A stretch of DNA of 64,000 nucleotides, from the NCBI GenBank assembly GCA_017399175.1, contig JAFQEE010000042.1, positions 1-64,000 of the forward strand. Reading direction: 5' to 3'. Shown here piece by piece: positions 15,014-55,461 of the stretch. The DNA is from Clostridia bacterium (GTDB lineage Bacteria; Bacillota; Clostridia; Oscillospirales; Acutalibacteraceae). Positions within the stretch are counted from its first letter, which is position 1. Each line of letters starts with the position of its first letter. Made by a program: the position numbers and the translations under genes. The notes beneath the pieces were generated by a model that searched no databases, was not told the DNA's origin, and saw nothing but the letters and a program-made list of their open reading frames with translations.

Positions 15014-16858
15014 ATGGTAAAAAAAGAAGTTGAAAAACTGTTAAAAAAAGTTCAAAAACCTGCAAGATACACAGGTGGAGAACTTAATAGTGTGGTTAAA
15101 AATAAAGATGATGTAAAACTTAGATATGCTTTCTGTTTCCCTGACAGCTATGAAATCGGTATGTCACATCTTGGTATGAAGATTCTTTACAGCGTTGTAA
15201 ATGAGCGTAAGGATGCTTGGTGCGAACGCGTTTTTGCACCTTGGGAAGATATGGAAAAATTTATGCGTGAAAACGATGTTAAGCTTTATGCTCTTGAAAG
15301 TGGCGACAGTCTTGATGAGTTTGATTTAATCGGTTTTTCATTACAATACGAATTATGTTACTCTAATGTACTTAATATGCTTGATTTAGGTGGTTTGCCT
15401 GTACTTAAAAAGGACAGAACAAGCCTTACTCCTATCGTTATTGCAGGTGGACCTTGTGCGTGTAATGCAGAACCAATGGTTGATTTTGTTGATATCTTCT
15501 TACCTGGTGAAGGTGAAGAGGTTACAAATGACATTATTGATTTGCTTATTAAACATAAGGAGTTAGGCTCAACAAAACTTGAGTTTTTAAAAGAAGCAGC
15601 ACAGATTCAAGGTGTTTATGTTCCTGAATTTTATGATGTCAAGTACAACGAAGACGGAACTATAAAATCAATAGAAAATACAGAAAATGCTCCCCAAAAA
15701 GTAACAAAAAGAATTGTATCGGACCTTGATAAAGCACATTATCCAAAGAATTTTGTTGTACCATTTATTGATGTTGTTCAGGACAGAACGGTGGGTGAAG
15801 TGTTCCGTGGTTGTACTCGTGGTTGCCGTTTTTGTCAGGCTTGTTATATCACAAGACCAATTCGTGAAAAATCACCTGAAACTATTAATGAACAATGTCG
15901 CAGTATAAGTAGTGCAACAGGTTATGACGGAATTTCACTATGTTCACTTTCAACAAGTGATTACACTAAAATTGAGCAACTTATTCCAATGCTTTTTGAT
16001 TGGGCCTTGAAAGAAAACATCAATGTTTCATTACCGTCTTTAAGAGTGGATAATTTTTCTGACGAGCTTATGGAAGAACTTAAAAAAGTCCGTCGCAGTG
16101 GTCTCACATTTGCTCCTGAAGCAGGTACACAACGACTTCGTGACGCAATCAATAAAAATGTTACGGAAGAAGAAGTTCTTCGTACAGCTTTAAAAGCCTT
16201 CGACGGTGGTTGGACAAGCGTTAAACTTTACTTTATGATGGGACTTCCCACAGAAACTCTTGATGATATAAAAGGAATTGCCGACCTTGCTCAAAAGGTT
16301 GTTGATACATTCTATCGCAATCCAAACAGAGAAAAGGGCAAGGGTGTTCAGGTAAGTGTCAGTTGTGCGTCCTTTGTTCCAAAGCCGTTTACACCATTCC
16401 AATGGGAGCCACAGGACACTCCTGAAAGCTTAAATGAAAAACAAAAGCATCTTCTCAGTAGTACAACAAGCCGTAAAATTACAATCAGTTATCATCAATC
16501 TGAAACATCAGTTCTTGAAGGTGTATTTGCTCGCGGTGACCGTCGTCTTGGTGAAGTAATTTACAAAGCGTGGCAAAAGGGTTGTAAGTTTGATGCGTGG
16601 GATGAATTCTTTGATTTTTCAAAGTGGACAGAAGCATTTAATGAATGTGGACTTACAACGGATTTTTACGCTAATCGTCGTCGTGAATATGATGAGATTC
16701 TTCCTTGGGATGTTATGGATTACGGTATCCGTAAGGAATTCCTTATTGAAGAAAACAAAAAAGCACATATGAGTGTGACAACTCCGCAATGCAGAATCAA
16801 ATGTGCTGCTTGTGGTGCTAATAAGTTGAACGGAGGTAAATGTGATGCCAGAAGTTAA
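15014..16858 (+). CDS. B12-binding/radical SAM protein of the TIGR03960 type
   Basis: A 614-residue protein with an N-terminal cobalamin-binding-like region (about 30-190, including GMSHLGMKILY and VIAGGPCACNAEP) and a radical SAM core whose cluster cysteines lie in RGCTRGCRFCQACY. Such proteins are conserved in Clostridia immediately before a DUF2344/TIGR03936 gene, as here, where the two overlap by 14 bp. The reaction is unknown; an RNA or ribosome modification role is sometimes suggested from gene context. The start is ATG 15014 with GAGG 6 bp upstream, not the in-frame GTG at 15002. Confidence 0.88.
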   Translation: MVKKEVEKLLKKVQKPARYTGGELNSVVKNKDDVKLRYAFCFPDSYEIGMSHLGMKILYSVVNERKDAWCERVFAPWEDMEKFMRENDVKLYALESGDSLDEFDLIGFSLQYELCYSNVLNMLDLGGLPVLKKDRTSLTPIVIAGGPCACNAEPMVDFVDIFLPGEGEEVTNDIIDLLIKHKELGSTKLEFLKEAAQIQGVYVPEFYDVKYNEDGTIKSIENTENAPQKVTKRIVSDLDKAHYPKNFVVPFIDVVQDRTVGEVFRGCTRGCRFCQACYITRPIREKSPETINEQCRSISSATGYDGISLCSLSTSDYTKIEQLIPMLFDWALKENINVSLPSLRVDNFSDELMEELKKVRRSGLTFAPEAGTQRLRDAINKNVTEEEVLRTALKAFDGGWTSVKLYFMMGLPTETLDDIKGIADLAQKVVDTFYRNPNREKGKGVQVSVSCASFVPKPFTPFQWEPQDTPESLNEKQKHLLSSTTSRKITISYHQSETSVLEGVFARGDRRLGEVIYKAWQKGCKFDAWDEFFDFSKWTEAFNECGLTTDFYANRRREYDEILPWDVMDYGIRKEFLIEENKKAHMSVTTPQCRIKCAACGANKLNGGKCDARS

Positions 16859-40734: not shown

Positions 40735-40763
40735 TTGCCAAATCATAGTTTTTGTAGTATAAT
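40735..40763 (+). promoter_or_regulatory. Promoter of the thiI-sortase-galE gene run
   Basis: TTGCCA (40735-40740), 17 bp, TATAAT (40758-40763). No terminator is visible from here to RNase P RNA at 51 kb, so it may drive ten genes. Confidence 0.7.
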
Positions 40764-40784: not shown

Positions 40785-41927
40785 ATGGGGGCGAAGAATT
40801 TGAGCGTTTATCTTGACAACAGTGCAACAACAAAACCGTGTGAAAAATCGGTAAAAAAAGCGCTTGAAATGATGAACGAAAAATTCGGTAATCCGTCTTC
40901 ACTTCATATGTGTGGCTTCAATGCTAAAAAAGAAATTGACTCTGCTCGTCATATTCTTTCTATTTTTTTAGGATGTGAGGATAAGGAAGTTTTCTTTACT
41001 CCAAGCGGTACAGTTGCCAATAATACGGCAATTTTTGGTACTGCTAATGCAAAACGCCGTGAAGGTAAAAAAGTTATAACAACTATGTTGGAGCATCCAA
41101 GCGTACTTAAGTGTTTTGAAAATCTTGATGAACAGGGATTTGAAGTTGTTTATCTCAAACCTGATATTAACGGAAAAATCAATCTTGATGAGTTATCAAA
41201 TGCAGTTGATGAAAACACAATTCTTGTAAGTGTTATGGCAGTTAATAATGAGGTCGGTTCAATTCAGGATTTTGCAAAAGTAAAAAGTATTATAAAAAAC
41301 AAAAAATCAAAAACATATTTCCATTGTGATGCCGTTCAGGCTTTTGGTAAATTACAGATAAAGCCTAAAAAACTTGGCATTGACCTTATGAGTATGAGTG
41401 CTCATAAAATTCACGGAGTAAAAGGTGCAGGTGCATTGTTTGTAAGTAACGATATTCGCATTTCACCGTACATCCTTGGTGGCGGTCAGGAAAACGGAAT
41501 GATTTCAGGTACTGAATCAACTCCTATGATATGTGCTTTTGCCGAGGCAGTAGGGGATATAGGTAATGTTGAGAAGAATCTTCATAATGTTACTGCTATA
41601 AGGGATTATTTTGTCAATAAAATAAAAGATGTTGATAAAGTATATGTAAACTCCCCACAGGATGCCTTACCATATATTATCAACATTTCTGTTGAGGGTG
41701 TACCTTCACAGGTTATGCTCAATTCACTTTCTTCAATGGGTATTTATGTTTCAGCAGGTTCTGCCTGTGCCAAAGGTCACAGAAGTGATGTTCTCACAGC
41801 AATGGGTGTTTCACCCACAGGAATTGATAGTGCTATAAGAATCAGCTTGTCAAAATTTACCACAGAAAATGATTTGGATTTGTTGTATAATGGAATAATT
41901 GAAACCATTAACCGTGTCAGGAGATGA
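40785..41927 (+). CDS. Cysteine desulfurase partner of ThiI (NifS-like)
   Basis: A 380-residue PLP enzyme homologous to NifS: VYLDNSATT at the N-terminus, PLP lysine K208 in SMSAHKIHG, and a persulfide cysteine in SAGSACAKG. Adjacent to thiI with the stop overlapping the ribosome site, it matches the NifZ-ThiI pair of Bacillus, supplying sulfur for 4-thiouridine in tRNA. The start is uncertain: ATG 40785 lacks a ribosome site and lies about 15 nt from the transcription start, while TTG 40800 is preceded by GGGGGCG. It differs clearly from the desulfurase at 3811, which is paired with iscU. Confidence 0.92.
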   Translation: MGAKNLSVYLDNSATTKPCEKSVKKALEMMNEKFGNPSSLHMCGFNAKKEIDSARHILSIFLGCEDKEVFFTPSGTVANNTAIFGTANAKRREGKKVITTMLEHPSVLKCFENLDEQGFEVVYLKPDINGKINLDELSNAVDENTILVSVMAVNNEVGSIQDFAKVKSIIKNKKSKTYFHCDAVQAFGKLQIKPKKLGIDLMSMSAHKIHGVKGAGALFVSNDIRISPYILGGGQENGMISGTESTPMICAFAEAVGDIGNVEKNLHNVTAIRDYFVNKIKDVDKVYVNSPQDALPYIINISVEGVPSQVMLNSLSSMGIYVSAGSACAKGHRSDVLTAMGVSPTGIDSAIRISLSKFTTENDLDLLYNGIIETINRVRR

Positions 41928-41929
41928 AT

Positions 41930-43102
41930 ATGAAAGAAATTATATTGATTAAGAACGGTGAGTTAGCATTAAAAGGTCTTAACCGTTCCACATTTGAAGA
42001 TATTTTAATCAAAAATATTCGTAAACGCATAAAACCATTAGGTGAATTTGAATACAGAAAAGAGCAATCAACAATTTCTGTTATTCCTGTTGACGATTAC
42101 ATAGATATGGACGAAGTAAGCGACAGAATAAGTCGTGTTTTCGGTATCGCAGCTTATTCAAGAGCATTACAGGTTGAAAAGGATATGTCAGTCATTCTCG
42201 ATAATGCACCTGACTATCTTGCGGAACAGTTAAAGGAAGCAAAAACATTTAAGGTTGAGGGTAAGCGTTCGGATAAAAAATTTCCACTTAAATCACCCGA
42301 GATTTCAGCAGAAGTCGGCGGAGCAATTTTAAGTAAATTCCCTCACTTGAAGGTTGATGTTAAAAATCCCGATATTCTTGTTACTATTGAGATAAGAGAA
42401 AAATTTGCTTTTATTCGTGGTAACCAAACAAAGGGTGCAGGCGGTATGCCGACAGGCACAGCAGGAAAAGCCGCAATCCTTATTTCAGGCGGTATTGATA
42501 GTCCAGTTGCAGCATATATGATGGCAAAGCGTGGTCTTGTGCTTAATGCAATTCACTTTGCATCACCGCCATATACTTTACCACAGTCTGAAGAAAAGGT
42601 TCACAATCTTCTTCGCAAGGTTTCAAGATATAGTGGAAACATCTGCTTGTTTACAGTCGGTTTTACTGAAATTCAGGAGGAAATAAGAGATAAATGTCCT
42701 GAAGAATTATTTACTCTTATTATGCGTCGTTTTATGATGCGAATTTCACAACGAATTGCTGACCGCGAAGATTGTAAAGCACTCATAACAGGTGAAAGCC
42801 TTGGTCAGGTTGCAAGTCAGACACTTAACGCACTTGCTTGTACTGATGCAGTTGTTGAAATGCCTGTATTCAGACCTTTAATCGGTCTTGATAAGGATGA
42901 AATTATTAAGGTTTCAAGAAAAATTGATACTTTTAATATTTCAATCGAACCTTATGAAGATTGTTGTACAGTGTTTACTCCAAAGCATCCTAAAACAAGA
43001 CCACAGATTTCAATTATCGAAACTGCCGAACAAGCACTTGATATTGATGGCCTTATTGAACGAGCATTGGAAAACACAATAATCAATAATATCTGTTTTT
43101 AA
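41930..43102 (+). CDS. thiI: tRNA 4-thiouridine synthase (ThiI)
   Basis: A 390-residue enzyme with an N-terminal ferredoxin-like and THUMP tRNA-binding region (about 1-170) and a PP-loop ATPase domain (AAILISGGIDSPVAAYMM, residue about 182 on). It generates s4U8 in tRNA using sulfur from the upstream desulfurase. The rhodanese domain of the enterobacterial protein is absent, as usual in Firmicutes. ATG 41930 gives a proper 7-bp spacing to AGGAG; the ATG at 41924 does not. Confidence 0.95.
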   Translation: MKEIILIKNGELALKGLNRSTFEDILIKNIRKRIKPLGEFEYRKEQSTISVIPVDDYIDMDEVSDRISRVFGIAAYSRALQVEKDMSVILDNAPDYLAEQLKEAKTFKVEGKRSDKKFPLKSPEISAEVGGAILSKFPHLKVDVKNPDILVTIEIREKFAFIRGNQTKGAGGMPTGTAGKAAILISGGIDSPVAAYMMAKRGLVLNAIHFASPPYTLPQSEEKVHNLLRKVSRYSGNICLFTVGFTEIQEEIRDKCPEELFTLIMRRFMMRISQRIADREDCKALITGESLGQVASQTLNALACTDAVVEMPVFRPLIGLDKDEIIKVSRKIDTFNISIEPYEDCCTVFTPKHPKTRPQISIIETAEQALDIDGLIERALENTIINNICF

Positions 43103-43112
43103 GAGGTAGATT

Positions 43113-43592
43113 ATGAAACTTGAAGAAAAAGTTGTAAAACTACTTCATGAAAAAAATCTTGTGATGTCTTGTGCCGAATCCTGTACGGGAGGACTAATTG
43201 CAAAACGAATTACTGATGTCAGCGGTTCATCCGCAGTTTTTAATTGCGGCATAGTCAGTTACAGCAACGAGATTAAGGAAAAAGTTCTTAATGTAAAGAG
43301 CGAAACTTTAATGGAGTTTGGTGCAGTCAGTGAACAGACTGTTCGTGAAATGGTGAAAGGCGTTCTCGCGATTTCAGGTGCAGATATTGCAGTTTCAGTT
43401 TCAGGAATTGCAGGACCAAATTCCGATAATACCGATAAACCTGTCGGTTTGATTTATTTAGCAGTTTCTGACGGTATAAAAACCGTTGTTAAGAAACTTA
43501 ATAATCAGTTCACAACTGATGTAAGGAACAGTAACAGAATAAGTGCTTCTGATGAGGCTCTTAATTTGATATTAAAAATGATAGGAGAATAA
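43113..43592 (+). CDS. pncC: Nicotinamide-nucleotide amidase (CinA C-terminal domain)
   Basis: A 159-residue stand-alone CinA-C domain that deamidates NMN to nicotinate mononucleotide. Its signatures are SCAESCTGGLIAKRITDVSG, GIVSYSNEIKEKVL, and SVSGIAGPNSDNTDKPVGL. It lies 10 bp after thiI and 3 bp before the sortase gene. The position is of interest because the protein three genes further on appears to contain a degenerate CinA-like module. Confidence 0.93.
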   Translation: MKLEEKVVKLLHEKNLVMSCAESCTGGLIAKRITDVSGSSAVFNCGIVSYSNEIKEKVLNVKSETLMEFGAVSEQTVREMVKGVLAISGADIAVSVSGIAGPNSDNTDKPVGLIYLAVSDGIKTVVKKLNNQFTTDVRNSNRISASDEALNLILKMIGE

Positions 43593-43595
43593 ACT

Positions 43596-44501
43596 ATGGA
43601 AAAGAAAAATAATGCTGTTGTAAAAAAAGTTATTATTGCAGTTGTAGTTGTTGTATTACTTGTAGCTGCAATATTCTTGACAAAATCATTTATTGACCAG
43701 AAGAACGAACCTTCAAACGGTGATGTTCCATCATCTTCACAGACATCACAGACTGTTGAACCAGTTTCAAAACCTGACTATTCAGAATATGTTGAACAGA
43801 ATCCTGAAACAGTAGGTTGGATTTCAATTCCGGGAACAAAGATTAATTTCCCTGTTGTACAGTCAGTAGATAATGAATATTATCTCTCTCATACATTTGA
43901 CCATAAGTCAGATAAACGTGGTGCAATTTATATGGACTATCGTAACAATGCCATTGACCTTGATGCTAATACAATTATCTATGGTCACAACGATTACAAA
44001 GACGGTAGTGTTTTTTCAGAAGTAGCACATTATGATGATATTGAGTATTACAAGGAACATCCGATTATTGAATTCAATACACTTGAAAGCTATTATCAGT
44101 GGAAAATCTATGCTGTATTTATCACAAATCAGCAAGCATATGATGATAACGGATATATTTTCAATTTTATCTGGCCTCAGATGGAAGGTCCAAACTTCAA
44201 GGGTTATGTTGAAGAATTGAATAAGCGTACACTTTATTATACAGGTGTTGATATCAAGAACGGTGATAGAATCCTTACATTGTCATCATGCGCAAGAAAT
44301 CTTGACACAGCAGGAAACCGTGCAAAAACAAGTATCGTTGTTGTTGCTCGTGCTGTAAGACCTGGTGAAGACCCGACAGTTGATGTTTCAAAAGCATATG
44401 TAAACGAAAATCCAAAGTATCCACAGCTTTATTACAATATTAAGGGTATCGCAAATCCATATAAGAATGATGAAAGATGGTACCCGGTGGTGATTGACTA
44501 A
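43596..44501 (+). CDS. Class B sortase, catalytically intact
   Basis: A 301-residue membrane-anchored transpeptidase: cytoplasmic N-terminus, one helix (about 10-30), Ser-rich linker and a sortase domain (about 60-260). The catalytic triad is in place: H131 (IIYGHNDY), C232 (LTLSSCARN) and an arginine in the following strand (R242 or R252). Class B-like features are FPVVQSVDNEYYL and the HPIIEFNTL segment. A C-terminal extension (about 262-301) ends in WYPVVID. No substrate with a sorting signal lies in the window. The next gene, a dead homologue, starts inside its stop codon (TAATG). Confidence 0.92.
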   Translation: MEKKNNAVVKKVIIAVVVVVLLVAAIFLTKSFIDQKNEPSNGDVPSSSQTSQTVEPVSKPDYSEYVEQNPETVGWISIPGTKINFPVVQSVDNEYYLSHTFDHKSDKRGAIYMDYRNNAIDLDANTIIYGHNDYKDGSVFSEVAHYDDIEYYKEHPIIEFNTLESYYQWKIYAVFITNQQAYDDNGYIFNFIWPQMEGPNFKGYVEELNKRTLYYTGVDIKNGDRILTLSSCARNLDTAGNRAKTSIVVVARAVRPGEDPTVDVSKAYVNENPKYPQLYYNIKGIANPYKNDERWYPVVID

Positions 44502-45781
44502 TGGATAAAAAAGAAAACAATAATCCAATGCTTTCTTTTGATAAACTCCGTGAAGGTTTAGGTATAGAAGGGGAATTACCACAGGTTAATGAACCGCAAA
44601 TACCAAAAACTGTTGAAGAGGTAAAATCGGTATCAAAAAATGTAACTCCGACAAGTGGAAAATCTGTTGTTGAAAACGGAATTAAATTTATTGATATTAC
44701 TGAACAGTACACATCTCCTCAGCAACAGACTGTAATAGCAGAAGAAACTACTGTAAAACAAGATGAAAAAGTGGAGCAAATTATAACACCCGGTCCCGAA
44801 ACACCTAAAAAGCGTGTAAGAACATTCAATGAAATCTTTTCTGATTTCTTTGCAGTTTTTCTTCCTGTTAAGGGTGACAGTAGTAAAGAAAAAATCAGAA
44901 AAATCATTATGGATTTTTCGATAATTCTTATTATCGCTTGTCTTATAGGTTTTGTTCAGCTTTTTGTTGAAAGAACTGAACAATCTGCTTTGGGTGGTTC
45001 AGTTAACAATACTGATTTAACTGATAGACTAAGCAATAATTCTTATAACGAATCATGGAAAGAAACTCTTTCTGATAGTGCTTCAATTACATTTCCCGAA
45101 GGTATGAAATCACAGTATTCATATCTTTATAGTTCAAACAATGATATGGCAGGTTGGATTAAAATTAATAACACCAGTCTTGATGTTCAGGTTGTTCAGG
45201 GCAATGATAATGAATATTATCAGAACAAGGACTTTTTTGGAAATGATAATAAATCAGGATGTCCGTATATTGATTATAAAAATGAAACGATTGAACTTGA
45301 TGATAATACAATAATTTACGGACAAAATTCCAACAATAATCTTATGTTTTCTGTTCTTGAACAGTATAAGACTATTGAAGGTTATAAAAAATCACCGATA
45401 ATTGAATTCAGTACTTTGTATAAGTCATATACTTTCAAGGTTTTTGCAGTATTTATTGCTACTGATAGCCCTGTAAGTGACAACGGTTTCAGTTATACCG
45501 TTACTGATTTTATGTCAGACAACAAATTTGGTGAGTTTATCAATGAAGTGAAAAGCAGAAGTCTTATTAATACTGATGTATCGGTACAGACTGATGATAA
45601 AATTTTAACTCTTGTTACTCCAACTCGTGAATTTGATAACGCACGACTTGTTGTAATGGGAAGAATGGTTCGTGAAAACGAATCGACTGATGTGAATGTG
45701 GATGCTGTAACTCTTAATACATCACCAAAGTATCCACAGGCATGGTATGATAAAAAAGGTGAAAGCAATCCTTTTGCATAA
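44501..45781 (+). CDS. Pseudosortase: class B sortase homologue without catalytic His and Cys
   Basis: A 426-residue protein with a cytoplasmic N-terminal tail of about 135 residues rich in Pro, Glu and Thr, one transmembrane helix (about 140-158) and an extracellular sortase fold. The fold aligns with the upstream sortase (IIYGQNSNNN against IIYGHNDYKD; KSPIIEFSTL against EHPIIEFNTL), but the catalytic histidine is Q275 and the cysteine of TLSSC/TLSTC is P374 in TLVTPTREF, while R382 is kept. It cannot be a transpeptidase by the known mechanism. Coupled by TAATG overlap to the active sortase, it may regulate or scaffold it. The gene is intact, with no frameshift. Confidence 0.9.
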   Translation: MDKKENNNPMLSFDKLREGLGIEGELPQVNEPQIPKTVEEVKSVSKNVTPTSGKSVVENGIKFIDITEQYTSPQQQTVIAEETTVKQDEKVEQIITPGPETPKKRVRTFNEIFSDFFAVFLPVKGDSSKEKIRKIIMDFSIILIIACLIGFVQLFVERTEQSALGGSVNNTDLTDRLSNNSYNESWKETLSDSASITFPEGMKSQYSYLYSSNNDMAGWIKINNTSLDVQVVQGNDNEYYQNKDFFGNDNKSGCPYIDYKNETIELDDNTIIYGQNSNNNLMFSVLEQYKTIEGYKKSPIIEFSTLYKSYTFKVFAVFIATDSPVSDNGFSYTVTDFMSDNKFGEFINEVKSRSLINTDVSVQTDDKILTLVTPTREFDNARLVVMGRMVRENESTDVNVDAVTLNTSPKYPQAWYDKKGESNPFA

Positions 45782-45823
45782 TAATATACAGGTAAAAGTA
45801 GGGAAAAGAGAGGTTATTTGAAT

Positions 45824-47911
45824 ATGAGAACAAAAGTGTTATCACTTAATGTTGACAGAAGTATGTCTTTTACTCGTTTTCAGGCTCGAATAGAAAGCAG
45901 TATAAACAACTATACTGATGATTGTGTCTTCCAACAGTTTGAAGATATAAGAGAAATGTTCGTTGCTTTGCAGAGTGCTCTTGAAAACGATGAATTAATT
46001 ATTACAGCAGTTGATGTAAAGAATTATTTAAAATTTAAAAATGCATTGATTCAGGCTTTTGGTACAGACATTGCATATAATTCCACTGTATTAAGACGCG
46101 TTGAGAATTTAAGTATTGAGGATAAAAAGAAAAAAGCCTTTTCTGCTTTCCCTGAACCTGCAACAGTATTTGTATCTGATGACGGTCTTTATTCAGGTTT
46201 TGCAATGGCTAACGGAAGTCAGTATCTCATTCTTTTACCTATTGATAATTACAGAATTGACGAAATTTTAAGAAATGGTGTAATTCCATATCTTAATGAA
46301 CAGTTAATGGCTAAATATGATGATATTGTTTTAACAACAGAAAAACCTGCATATTTTGATAAGGTTTCATTTGCTGTAAACAGCATTCTTGAATGTGATT
46401 CGCTTGTTGCTGTTAATGGCACAAGAAATGCAGAGGTTTTAAAGAGCTGTGGTGACGAAGTTATAGGATTTGATAAGGCTTTTGTGTTTACACCTTATGT
46501 TGAGGATAAAGGCAAGATTAATCCTACTGAATATACTGCTCAGCTTGCAAGGGTAAGTCTTGACTTATCTTCTGCAAAACTCGGTGCTTGTATTAGTGAT
46601 ATATACACATCAAATGATGCTAAATATATCTGTATCGCAGTTTCTGATGGTGATTCAGCACTTGTTAGAAAACTCTATATGTCTGATAATGAAACTGAAC
46701 ATGAGTTTGTTGAAAGTGCAGCAGTTGAACTCATTGAACTTATTGGTGAAAAAGTATCTGGTAAGAGAAGTGTAGGAATTGAATTTGCCGATGAACAGGA
46801 AAATGCGATTACAGACGATGATAAAAAGATTGCAAAGAAAAAACCTCTTGCTATTCTTGCAATTATCATTGGTCTTGTATTTATAATCTGTGCAATCTTT
46901 GCTTTTATTTTCCAATCAAAAGATAACAGCGATTTGTTTGCTTCACTTTTCAGCAATGAAGAATCTTCAACAACTGAAACAACAACAGAACCTATTAGTA
47001 CAACAGAGCCTGTTACTTCAGGCACAACTGCATATGATGAAAGTATGATGAAACTTTCAGATTACATTGTTTCAACTATTATGAGTATGGACGAAGCAAC
47101 AATTCAGAATAATATTTCGGAATATAGTAAAGAAGTTCCTGAATTTATTACTGTTAATGGTGAGCAAATTCCTGCAAAACAGGCACTTGCTCGTCTTGTT
47201 ACTGCTGAAATTTCAAACGGATATAACTATGATGCGGTAAAGGCATATACTGTTGCTGCATATACTTGTCTTAAAGTAATCGGCAATGATTTTGTTCTTG
47301 ATAATGTTAGAATTTCACAATCTTCAAATGGTGTTGTAATACGAGCAGTTGATGATGTTTTTGGTGAATATCTTACATATAATAATTTCCTTGCCGTTCC
47401 TTTGTTCCATAATCTTACAGCAGTAAGCACTCTTGATATGTCAGCAAAACTACCATATCTTAAGAGCGTTAAATTAGAACGTCATCAGGATGTTAATGTA
47501 AGAAACTACGAAACAAGCAAAGTGTATTCTGTTGATGAAATGAAAGCAATCTTACTTAAGAATAACAGTTCCGTTGTCCTTTCAGAAAATCCTGCTGAAT
47601 GGATAGTTGTTAAGGAACATGATGCTTCTGTTTCAGCAGAAGTAGGTAATGTTAAATCTGTTGTTTTCAATGGTACTGAAATGACAGGTATTGAATTTAA
47701 GATGAAGGTAATGGGCGATGATAAGTTAGCTTCAATCTGTTTCCAGATTGTATATAACGCAGAAACATCTTCATTTATTGTTACAACATATGGTCAGGGT
47801 TACGGAATTGGTATGGGTCAGATTGGTGCTAAATATCTTTCAGTTAATGACCATGACTATAAAGCAATTCTTGCAAAATATTACGAGGGTACAACAGTTA
47901 CAAAGGGGTAA
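45824..47911 (+). CDS. CinA-like cytoplasmic module fused through a TM helix to a SpoIID domain
   Basis: A 695-residue protein: an N-terminal cytoplasmic region (about 1-335), a transmembrane helix (about 342-365), a Thr/Ser/Glu-rich linker and a C-terminal SpoIID (lytic transglycosylase) domain (about 405-695). The SpoIID part is clear: ALARLVTAEISNGYNYDAVK with the catalytic glutamate at E462, and GQGYGIGMGQIGAKYLS near the end. The N-terminal region resembles a degenerate CinA: a MoaB/CinA-like stretch (SDDGLYSGFAMANGSQYLIL) and then a PncC-like stretch (AKYICIAVSDGDSALVRKLY) without its catalytic residues; this is inference. ATG 45824 is preferred to TTG 45818 (4 bp from the ribosome site). 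Confidence 0.85.
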   Translation: MRTKVLSLNVDRSMSFTRFQARIESSINNYTDDCVFQQFEDIREMFVALQSALENDELIITAVDVKNYLKFKNALIQAFGTDIAYNSTVLRRVENLSIEDKKKKAFSAFPEPATVFVSDDGLYSGFAMANGSQYLILLPIDNYRIDEILRNGVIPYLNEQLMAKYDDIVLTTEKPAYFDKVSFAVNSILECDSLVAVNGTRNAEVLKSCGDEVIGFDKAFVFTPYVEDKGKINPTEYTAQLARVSLDLSSAKLGACISDIYTSNDAKYICIAVSDGDSALVRKLYMSDNETEHEFVESAAVELIELIGEKVSGKRSVGIEFADEQENAITDDDKKIAKKKPLAILAIIIGLVFIICAIFAFIFQSKDNSDLFASLFSNEESSTTETTTEPISTTEPVTSGTTAYDESMMKLSDYIVSTIMSMDEATIQNNISEYSKEVPEFITVNGEQIPAKQALARLVTAEISNGYNYDAVKAYTVAAYTCLKVIGNDFVLDNVRISQSSNGVVIRAVDDVFGEYLTYNNFLAVPLFHNLTAVSTLDMSAKLPYLKSVKLERHQDVNVRNYETSKVYSVDEMKAILLKNNSSVVLSENPAEWIVVKEHDASVSAEVGNVKSVVFNGTEMTGIEFKMKVMGDDKLASICFQIVYNAETSSFIVTTYGQGYGIGMGQIGAKYLSVNDHDYKAILAKYYEGTTVTKG

Positions 47912-47917
47912 TTTATT

Positions 47918-48937
47918 ATGAGTATTTTAGTTACAGGAGGCGCAGGATTTATTGGTTCACATACTTGTGTTGAACTTTTAAATGCAGGTTATGAAATTGT
48001 TATTGTAGATAATCTCTACAATTCAAGTGAAAAATCTCTTGAAAGAGTAAAAGAATTAACAGGCAAAGATTTTTCATTCTATCCTTATGATATTCGTGAT
48101 AAGGAGAATATGAGAAAAGTTTTTGAAAATCATAAGATTGATGCTTGTATTCATTTTGCAGGTCTTAAAGCAGTTGGCGAAAGTTGTGCAAAACCATTGG
48201 AATATTATGATAATAATATTGGTGGTACACTTGCTCTTTGTGAAGTTATGAGAGAATATAACTGTAAGAAGATTGTCTTCAGTTCATCTGCAACAGTATA
48301 CGGTAGCAGTAATATTTCTCCATTAAAAGAAGATATGAAAACAGGTGGCACAACAAATCCATATGGTACAACAAAATATATGATAGAGATTATTCTCGAT
48401 GATTTCCATAAAGGTGATAGTGATTGGGCAGTAACACTTCTTCGTTACTTTAATCCAATTGGTGCACACAAAAGTGGTCGTATCGGTGAAAATCCAAATG
48501 GTATTCCAAACAATCTTATGCCTTATATTACACAGGTTGCTATCGGTAAATTACCATACCTTAATGTATTCGGTGATGATTATGATACACATGACGGTAC
48601 AGGCGTAAGAGATTATATTCATGTTGTTGACTTGGCTCTCGGCCATGTTAAGGCTGTTGAAAAAATTCTTAAAGACGAACCAAAGGTTAATGTTTATAAC
48701 CTTGGCACAGGTAACGGATACAGCGTTCTTGATATTGTTAAGGCATTTGAACAGGCTTCAGGACAAAAGATTGAGTATAAAATTGCTCCTCGTCGTCCCG
48801 GTGACCTTGATGTTTGTTATTCAGACGCAACAAAGGCATTCAATGAACTTGGTTGGAAAGCAGAGCGTGACCTTCTCGAAATGTGCGAAGACTCATGGAG
48901 ATGGCAGAGCAATAATCCAAACGGTTTTGATGAATAA
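47918..48937 (+). CDS. galE: UDP-glucose 4-epimerase
   Basis: A 339-residue short-chain dehydrogenase-like enzyme interconverting UDP-glucose and UDP-galactose. It has the NAD-binding [16 protein letters not shown], the catalytic serine in FSSSATVYG and the Tyr-x-x-x-Lys pair in [11 protein letters not shown], with [12 protein letters not shown] and a C-terminal [14 protein letters not shown]. It starts 6 bp after the SpoIID gene. A link to cell-wall or capsule sugars is plausible from context. Confidence 0.96.
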
Positions 48938-50953: not shown

Positions 50954-50960
50954 TAAATAT

Positions 50961-51288
50961 GAGTAAGTTGGGCAGTTGCGCAGAAAGATTTTCTGTGAGG
51001 AAAGTCCGAGCATCATACAGCAGGGTAACGGCTAACAGCCGCCGAGGGTGACCTTAGGGAAAGTGCATAGAGAATAACCGCCGTTAATAACGGTAAGGGT
51101 GGAAAGGTGAGGTAAGAGCTCACCGGCGTTGCAGAGATGTAACGGCCGAGCAAACCCTACCCGATGCAACATCGACAGGAGTTGTCAGCTGGGCAGATAC
51201 TCCAACGGATGGCTTCAGGTATATGGCAACATATATCGTAGATAGATAATTGCCTTAAACGACAGAACTCGGCTTACAGATTTACTCA
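50961..51288 (+). ncRNA. rnpB: RNase P RNA (bacterial type A-like)
   Basis: About 328 nt with the universal core elements: GAGGAAAGTCCGAGCA near 50997, AGCAAACCCTACCCG near 51149 and ACAGAACTCGGCTTACAG near 51262. The ends, GAGTAA (50961-50966) and TTACTC (51282-51287), pair as P1. It processes tRNA 5' ends. A terminator follows directly. Confidence 0.96.
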
Positions 51289-51293
51289 TTTAT

Positions 51294-55312: not shown

Positions 55313-55330
55313 AAATATAGCCAAGTAAAT

Positions 55331-55425
55331 AGTTATGGGTGCTGACGGTAAGTCGGCTGAGATTGAGGTTAATCCACCTCTGACCATTGAACCTGATACG
55401 GATAATGCCGGCGTAGGAAATTTTC
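55331..55425 (+). ncRNA. TPP (thiamine pyrophosphate) riboswitch
   Basis: The THI-box conserved parts are plain: GGGTGCTGACGG, GGCTGAGATTGAGG and AACCTGATACGGATAATGCC, then GGCGTAGGAAAT. It is followed by a terminator hairpin and a thiamine transporter gene. Confidence 0.95.
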
Positions 55426-55461
55426 ATTCAGCCTTGCGGTATTCCTTGGCTGAATTTTTTT
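55426..55461 (+). terminator. Riboswitch expression-platform terminator
   Basis: ATTCAGCC (55426-55433) pairs with GGCTGAAT (55448-55455), followed by T7. Formed when TPP is bound, it prevents transcription into thiT, whose ribosome site (GGAGG) starts 5 bp further on. Confidence 0.88.

Follow-up and report, generated by a model that had tools for sequence, protein, structure and literature searches.

A putative cell-envelope module of the Oscillospirales joining CinA-fold domains to class B sortases and SpoIID

CinA has been studied as a soluble enzyme, and its wider role is still debated. We know of no sortase that carries an enzyme domain on the cytoplasmic side of the membrane. Here we describe a locus in a 64,000-nucleotide stretch of DNA from a Clostridia bacterium of the order Oscillospirales (GenBank assembly GCA_017399175.1, contig JAFQEE010000042.1, positions 1 to 64,000 of the forward strand; hereafter the window), where a stand-alone nicotinamide mononucleotide (NMN) amidase gene, pncC, is followed by two class B sortase genes and by a gene whose product combines a degenerate CinA, a transmembrane (TM) segment and a SpoIID/LytB domain in a single chain.

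As far as the accessible part of the source extends, the CinA of Thermus thermophilus, an NMN deamidase and adenosine diphosphate (ADP)-ribose pyrophosphatase, forms an asymmetric dimer, with a movement of the COG1058 domains proposed for the ADP-ribose reaction, and the solved enzyme is presented there without a TM, sortase or SpoIID part (PMC4246079). The present locus is like CinA/PncC in the folds of fusion residues 3-316, in its stand-alone pncC, and in the intact CinA parts of fused proteins found elsewhere; it differs in that neither the ESCTGG motif nor the KH domain is present in the window copy, which fits the structure per domain and not as a whole. With class B sortases (TIGR03064; PDB 1rz2, 1qwz and others) it shares the family match, an N-terminal membrane anchor and, in most relatives, the His-Cys-Arg triad, whereas the sortases here have a cytoplasmic CinA domain or a long arm with a juxtamembrane motif, and the triads of the window species are impaired. 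The fusion shares with SpoIID (PDB 5i1t, 5txu, 4rwr) and SpoIID/LytB proteins the domain fold, a Glu at the catalytic position and the G.G.GMSQ region, but here the domain is apparently tethered through the membrane to a CinA-fold domain, at a locus with sortases, and exists besides the genome's other SpoIID-like open reading frame (ORF).

Two described systems offer likenesses of another kind. In the SteAB-RipA system of the Mycobacteriales, likened here by way of working only, from its description in part of the source, and not by homology, a cytoplasmic domain whose nucleotide pocket resembles that of an enzyme influences hydrolysis of the wall on the other side of the membrane; unlike the present case, SteA is thiamine pyrophosphokinase-like, RipA contributes a coiled coil, the bridge is made of two proteins and the account features no sortase (PMC12977500). 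In the Glp-GlpR divisome of the Corynebacteriales, a molybdotransferase/gephyrin-type enzyme is reused as a scaffold with a membrane receptor, but that enzyme belongs to the MoeA family and binds FtsZ, and CinA, sortase and SpoIID do not figure in the accessible part of the paper (PMC10522489). A 2013 classification noted CinA domains fused to other domains and set them aside, and its main text, as far as that was available, does not use the word “sortase” (PMC3855486). Within open-access PMC, the titles and beginnings of abstracts listed gave no link of sortase with CinA, nicotinamide or nicotinamide-nucleotide amidohydrolase, of sortase with SpoIID, or of class B sortase with Ruminococcus; eight papers there contain both words, “sortase” and “CinA”, at some point. 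The conserved proximity and repeated fusion of these parts, set out below, suggest a hitherto undescribed machine linking the cell interior to the wall.

The features of the locus on which the argument turns are the following.

43113 to 43592, + strand: pncC, stand-alone NMN amidase domain (PF02464, 6.8e-52; motif AESCTGG intact)
43596 to 44501, + strand: class B sortase 1 (TIGR03064, 164.3 bits; N-terminal TM, residues 12-30; His131, Cys232; Ser246)
44501 to 45781, + strand: class B sortase 2, a pseudo-sortase here (cytoplasmic region of ~134 residues; TM 135-153; Gln275, Pro374, Arg382)
44834 to 44899, + strand: juxtamembrane motif FLPVKGD...EKIRK on the cytoplasmic side of sortase 2 (limits approximate, by eye)
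45818 to 47911, + strand: fusion of degenerate CinA, TM and SpoIID, 697 aa (TTG start; ATG alternative at 45824)
45824 to 46303, + strand: degenerate COG1058/MoCF-like domain of CinA, residues ~3-162 (hhalign; Foldseek to 3kbq, TMt 0.67-0.70)
46355 to 46765, + strand: degenerate PncC-like domain, residues ~180-316 (ESCTGG lost; CinA KH linker apparently deleted)
46853 to 46909, + strand: single TM segment, residues 346-364 (hydropathy; model helix 341-365)
47135 to 47908, + strand: SpoIID/LytB domain, residues ~440-697 (taken as outside the membrane; Glu at the catalytic position)

A first-pass annotation, made from the letters of the window, had described these as four packed genes with spacings of 3, -1 and 42 bp, and so they are, the third gap becoming 36 bp if the TTG start is used in place of the ATG. 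Its reading of pncC as an NMN amidase gene also stands: by family score (TIGR00199, 145.5 bits against a cut-off of 68.9) and by its active-site motif, in which we take the Ser of ESCTGG to be the catalytic-motif residue, the protein looks intact. It scores under the cut-offs of the equivalog models PRK03661 and PRK00549, and it is the sole PF02464 match found in its own genome. The same annotation placed an apparently degenerate CinA-type module in the fusion, so that a real and a degenerate PncC/CinA would share one cluster, and named profile search and structure prediction of the N-terminal region as the check on this claim. Both bear it out.

The fusion family, represented by 26 genus members, matches a CinA profile at an hhalign probability of 96.1% (E 2.8e-9), collinear over 248 columns; that profile was built from 16 full CinA proteins of the order, taken from 18 ORFs in 30 loci with two of at least 470 aa excluded. 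Against eight CinA-sortase fusions the probability is 97.1% (E 5e-11). An AlphaFold (AF2) model of the window fusion, computed from 36 sequences (mean predicted local distance difference test score, pLDDT, 83.5; predicted template modelling score, pTM, 0.47), is matched by Foldseek to T. thermophilus CinA 4uux at 2.1e-11 over 400 columns. Superposition on 4uux over the whole length is poor (TMt 0.33, root-mean-square deviation 13.8); taken domain by domain, the model fits 3kbq (COG1058), 5vu3, 2a9s and most of the PncC structures listed at TMt ~0.63-0.70, and residues 3-316 thus belong to the CinA fold, with its COG1058 and PncC domains. Weaker Foldseek matches show the CinA N-domain fold to resemble gephyrin and MoaB. 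The PncC-like domain has no ESCTGG, an NGTRNA region aligning in its place, and between the two CinA domains a short low-confidence linker (model residues 164-174) stands where the KH-type domain would be. As a single sequence the window fusion matches CinA weakly (hhalign 38%, hmmsearch 6.1e-6; shuffled, reversed and unrelated controls give 0.0-3.9% by hhalign), so the CinA call rests on the family profile and the model. A Pfam scan of the N-terminal region found no family, a PF02464 search of the genome does not reach the fusion, and a PDB sequence search with the fusion profile matched SpoIID and no CinA entry. On profile and model, then, the N-terminal half of the fusion is a degenerate CinA.

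The C-terminus was called SpoIID in the first pass, and this is confirmed. TIGR02669 (SpoIID/LytB) matches at 2.2e-19, below the model cut-off; the fusion-family profile finds the PDB SpoIID entries of C. difficile and B. anthracis at 2.3e-40 (5txu) and 1.9e-29; and Foldseek aligns the model to SpoIID 5i1t at 3.2e-16 with TMt 0.72, placing the domain in the SpoIID fold. At what we take to be the catalytic position, the window and 32 of 36 genus sequences have Glu; a separate reading found it in 16 rows, the row for L065 being an incomplete sequence (L, G and f numbers are our handles for loci or sequence stretches, genomes and families). The single TM at residues 346-364 is predicted to place the SpoIID domain outside the cell.

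Within the genus the arrangement is stable. The fusion occurs in 35 of 36 genomes, in some only partially at contig ends; G004, 75% complete, shows the other SpoIID and no fusion. Gene order is held in all 34 genus loci examined (L031-L064), as far as the contigs reach, which excludes a chimera of one assembly as the source of the region. Among these loci, sortase 2 is seen in 33 (all but L064, which stops within the fusion), sortase 1 in 32 (L049 and L064 stop short of it), galE, the gene downstream, in 33 (L038 stops within the fusion), and pncC in 28, with four further contigs too short to include it; L047 and L052 carry three sortases. In another genus of the same family, g300 (L241, L243), an intact cinA is accompanied by one sortase with an acidic arm of ~300 residues and by a fusion of the window type. 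Compared with CinA as single sequences, the N-terminal arms of the two g300 fusions score 0.8% (L241) and 90.2% (L243) by hhalign, and that of L241 aligns with the window fusion. The N-terminal arms of the sortases in L241, L243, L206, L211 and L203 and of window sortase 2 score 0.1-3.2% against 0.0-3.9% for controls, and are therefore not shown to be CinA.

Beyond the genus, a neighbourhood survey, the second check named in the first pass, yielded no refutation. A cinA/pncC match was found in 133 of 147 genomes of the order, and at least 23 of the 133, in six families, carry a class B sortase on the same strand, no more than 4 kb downstream of the match (f1 5, f4 4, f9 3, f15 2, f23 1, f26 8), where a crude chance expectation, assuming 1.5 sortases and 2.2 Mb, would be 0.15 genomes, the genomes being related and not independent. 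With changes, the neighbourhood extends to at least seven families (f1, f4, f9, f15, f16, f23, f26). Its usual order is csd-thiI-cinA/pncC-sortase, followed by SpoIID in the eight f26 genomes read, in both f15 genomes, in G571 and in G773. Adjacency or fusion of CinA/PncC, class B sortase and SpoIID after thiI is thus seen in the window, in its genus and in other families. The relatives' sequence records bear the names of uncultured Clostridia, Oscillospiraceae, Ruminococcaceae and Candidatus Fimenecus, with animal gut or rumen as the source of several.

The most telling cases are those in which the parts share a single chain. CinA/PncC and sortase lie in one ORF in 13 genomes of nine genera and six families: G038, G063, G082 and G100 (f4), G072 and G049 (f15), G087 (f9), G057 (f23), G565 and G772 (f1), and G732, G646 and G716 (f26). 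All eight aligned CinA-sortase fusions retain AESCTGG as well as the three sortase residues His, Cys and Arg, and each is predicted to have a single TM; G565 and G772 have ESCTAG. In G732, a seven-contig genome, CinA, TM, sortase and SpoIID follow one another in one 1117-aa chain, with EASTGG in the CinA part, an intact-looking sortase, and all three domains over their cut-offs (PncC_domain 71.6 bits against 68.9, sortase 177.8, SpoIID_LytB 134.3). In G716 an intact CinA gene precedes a single protein made of degenerate CinA, TM, dead sortase and SpoIID, the sortase part being missed by the NCBIfam sortase model at 1e-3 and found by blastp and the genus sortase profile; in G646 the CinA and sortase motifs are both lost. 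In all three of these f26 genomes the fused degenerate CinA copy adjoins a second, intact CinA. Among the matches listed, a class-level search of 391 genomes gave no fused ORF outside the order; a phylum search of 398 genomes at E 1e-165 came back empty, from a sample without a known positive and at a threshold that would miss degenerate fusions.

Repeated single-ORF fusions accordingly support the proposal that CinA, sortase and SpoIID constitute a single unit related to the envelope, and both the extent of the system and the evidence for it go beyond what the window displays; what it does, we infer. The earlier observation is partly confirmed and its interpretation partly supported. The reading that we favour, at about even chances, is that the window locus is the genus version of a conserved, mainly vertically inherited envelope module, in which a CinA-fold platform joins sortase and SpoIID. 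Outside the membrane, a class B sortase and a SpoIID-type glycan hydrolase would each be tied through a single membrane helix to cytoplasmic CinA-fold domains. These domains would pair, an active PncC/CinA with a degenerate copy or degenerate copies with each other, as the dimer of the solved enzyme leads us to expect, and pairing would unite sortase and SpoIID at a common site, SpoIID opening glycan strands there and the sortase anchoring surface proteins that bear sorting signals of the type [ILV]PxT[SGN]. This may be gated through NMN or ADP-ribose bound by an active copy. In the window species, with triads partly lost in both sortases, the module may be decaying or kept as a scaffold.

The two sortases of the window bear directly on this last point. 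Taking His, Cys and Arg to be the sortase active-site triad, sortase 1, which the first pass called a functional class B enzyme, is class B by score (its 164.3 bits exceed the TIGR03064 cut-off of 153.75; AF2 model mean pLDDT 88.3), but its supposed function is in question: His131 and Cys232 are present, and the near-invariant Arg column (33 of 35 rows with Arg) has Ser in the other two, the window (Ser246) and L031. Sortase 2 falls just under the same cut-off at 147.3 bits and, as had been seen from the start, lacks His and Cys (YGQN and LVTP instead) while keeping the Arg. Both sortases are therefore impaired in the window/L031 pair, at complementary places. An active sortase with a dead partner is not, however, how the system is built: the His and Cys of sortase 2 persist in 32 of 33 relatives' rows, L031 (G013) being the one that shares the loss, so that a pseudo-enzyme by design is excluded and the window pairing is a local derived state. 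It remains an idle thought that sortase 1, without Arg, and sortase 2, with only Arg, complement each other. A PF04203 search finds no other sortases in the genome, and exactly two matches in 11 of 35 genus genomes.

For the window species by itself, then, a locus in decay, in which nothing works any more, has only slightly less than an even chance; it is compatible with the favoured reading for the relatives. The sortase 2 losses and the Arg-to-Ser change of sortase 1 are confined to this species and L031, and the ratios of nonsynonymous to synonymous substitution rates (dN/dS, NG86) between the two are 0.17, 0.24 and 0.29 for sortase 1, sortase 2 and fusion, above the ranges of 0.03-0.13, 0.06-0.12 and 0.06-0.19 seen, where defined, in 11 pairs without them; all of these ratios are rough because synonymous sites are near saturation in many pairs. 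Yet all ORFs are open, dN/dS is well under 1, PncC is untouched and a candidate substrate is still present in the genome. Constraint in the window/L031 pair is relaxed, not gone, and the copy in the window is impaired or repurposed, within a system for which most relatives keep the sortase motifs intact.

That candidate substrate also qualifies the first-pass statement that no sortase substrate is visible, which holds within the window but not genome-wide. A 1209-aa ORF elsewhere in the genome (L100, G000:C23, end ~16003-16086) has the C-terminus EIPNTS-TM-KKKRR and, in the last 533 residues, which were read, purple acid phosphatase and metallophosphatase domains; it counters the absence of any substrate, the call resting on motif, TM and basic tail, all by eye. 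Other two-sortase genomes have sorting-signal-like ends as well: IPNTSA (G017), IPNTGD (G009), LPNTSV (G022) and, more weakly, VPELGD (G028). By eye, such ends are present in 15 of 20 fetched stretches, with none in L079, L091, L093, L097 and L098. The sorting-signal model TIGR01167 is unspecific, matching 14 of 14 control genomes and scoring above cut-off in nine, and its best match in the window's own genome (L079/L099) is without the motif. G017 also encodes a similar 1216-aa phosphatase-like ORF (L085).

Several findings weigh against the favoured reading and, in part, for a rival that we consider improbable but of some substance, namely inheritance of an operon without function: sortase and SpoIID would have joined csd-thiI-cinA once and stayed by descent, with occasional fusions through loss of a stop codon. 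Among the matches listed, 110 of the 133 cinA/pncC genomes have no adjacent class B sortase, and several members of the same families clearly lack one; csd-thiI-cinA with no sortase alongside is common among the loci read, and a cinA or pncC not flanked by a sortase was seen in a number of them (L135, L138, L140, L142, L239, L240, L242 and L244-L246 in f1; L247, L248 and L250 in f26; L146-L154 in other families). Since csd-thiI-cinA is itself a recurrent order, proximity is partly inheritance. Two genus loci, L032 and L033, have no pncC between thiI and sortase 1, and in four of the 36 genus sequences the SpoIID Glu is replaced by Asp or Ala. The PncC motif is lost in G732, G646, G716 and the genus fusion, so that enzymatic gating by that part is not general.

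The sortase tree, of 82 domains, points the same way as to history. One branch, with support 100/97, has on one side 56 of 58 linked sortases with eight unlinked ones, and on the other 16 unlinked sortases (the midpoint root serves for drawing only); “linked” here means lying on a fetched locus stretch, and includes two sortases of the L232/L233 stretches that do not adjoin cinA. Linked sortases being mostly one group, the locus is mainly inherited, with repeated fusion or splitting, and fused and unfused members coexist inside f9, f1 and f26. The fusions, moreover, join genes that are neighbours in the order, as inheritance alone would have it. Against such a functionless history are the occurrence of fusions in six families, with both active sites kept in every aligned case, and the juxtamembrane motif (~F..xxP.KGD...E.IR), which precedes the TM in many CinA-locus or fused sortases across families, window sortase 2 included, its strict pattern recurring in 25 of 58 linked as opposed to one of 24 unlinked sortases. 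Degenerate CinA is carried on SpoIID in the genus and in g300 although an intact cinA/pncC lies two or three genes away, and the same coexistence is seen in G732, G646 and G716; stop-codon loss alone is therefore not the origin of these copies.

Some loci vary further. In L146:3843-5486 (G061), thiI and a PncC domain with intact AESCTGG share a 547-aa ORF, which adds another fusion to this operon. Four consecutive class B sortases lie between pncC and SpoIID in L203 (G143), and in f26 an extra ORF of 343 or 302 aa stands between the sortase and SpoIID genes (L198 from 7994, L202 from 7127). The class B sortases of L207 and L208 (f2), of ~680-730 aa, have long C-terminal extensions and are not beside cinA in the stretches read.

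Metabolic co-regulation, by which pncC would recycle NMN during growth and merely be co-transcribed with envelope genes required at that time, and CinA on membrane proteins would only localise the enzyme to the membrane, we consider quite unlikely. The stand-alone gene and many of the fused copies have an intact PncC motif, and the window gaps of 3 to 42 bp would suit it; but the SpoIID-borne CinA persists in 35 of 36 genus genomes with the motif absent (read in the window), and is unlikely to act on NMN. Least probable, and very doubtful, is a sporulation device, the fusion being the genus engulfment SpoIID or a forespore-specific copy: SpoIID homology and the presence of SpoIIP, SpoIID's partner, in 34 of 35 genus genomes, the window's own included, agree with it, but the fusion sits among sortases and housekeeping genes, and a separate SpoIID-like ORF of usual size (in the window's own genome G000:C12, 326 aa) leads us to reject the fusion as the sporulation SpoIID.

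To return to the envelope module, the physical coupling of CinA, sortase and SpoIID is supported by the recurrent fusions, as read from sequence; gating by nucleotides is possible where an active copy takes part. With the PncC motif gone from the window fusion, a scaffold role is at least as likely as NMN or ADP-ribose signalling. More tentatively, and against our own expectation, a nicotinamide adenine dinucleotide (NAD)-salvage fold might serve as cytoplasmic sensor or scaffold, dimers of active and degenerate CinA switching on NMN or ADP-ribose and positioning sortase and SpoIID; if this is true, nucleotide state or the division cycle would set where and when proteins are anchored. With CinA, sortase and SpoIID joined in one chain, two questions become open to direct test in a member of the order that can be cultured: the reason for which CinA is retained, and what determines when and where gut Clostridia anchor surface proteins. 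Such a protein may also be a further instance of metabolic folds reused as envelope regulators, alongside SteA and Glp.

The four genes lie in a longer run on one strand, comprising csd, thiI, the four genes, galE, lemA and a TPM-domain gene, with thiI 10 bp upstream of the cluster and galE 6 bp downstream. The features flanking the cluster are as follows.

40735 to 40763, + strand: candidate operon promoter TTGCCA-17-TATAAT (11/12 matches; top promoter-like site of the region, directly 5' of csd)
40785 to 41927, + strand: csd, cysteine desulfurase (PF00266, 2.6e-64; heads the conserved csd-thiI-cinA/pncC order)
41924 to 43102, + strand: thiI (PF02568, 9.2e-71)
47918 to 48937, + strand: galE (downstream neighbour within the genus)

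The region holds 57 promoter-like sites against 45.2 (standard deviation 6.4) in shuffles, and the promoter upstream of csd is therefore suggestive only. Elsewhere in the window, Rfam identifies an ordinary class A RNase P RNA at 50960-51292 and an ordinary thiamine pyrophosphate (TPP) riboswitch at 55325-55436.

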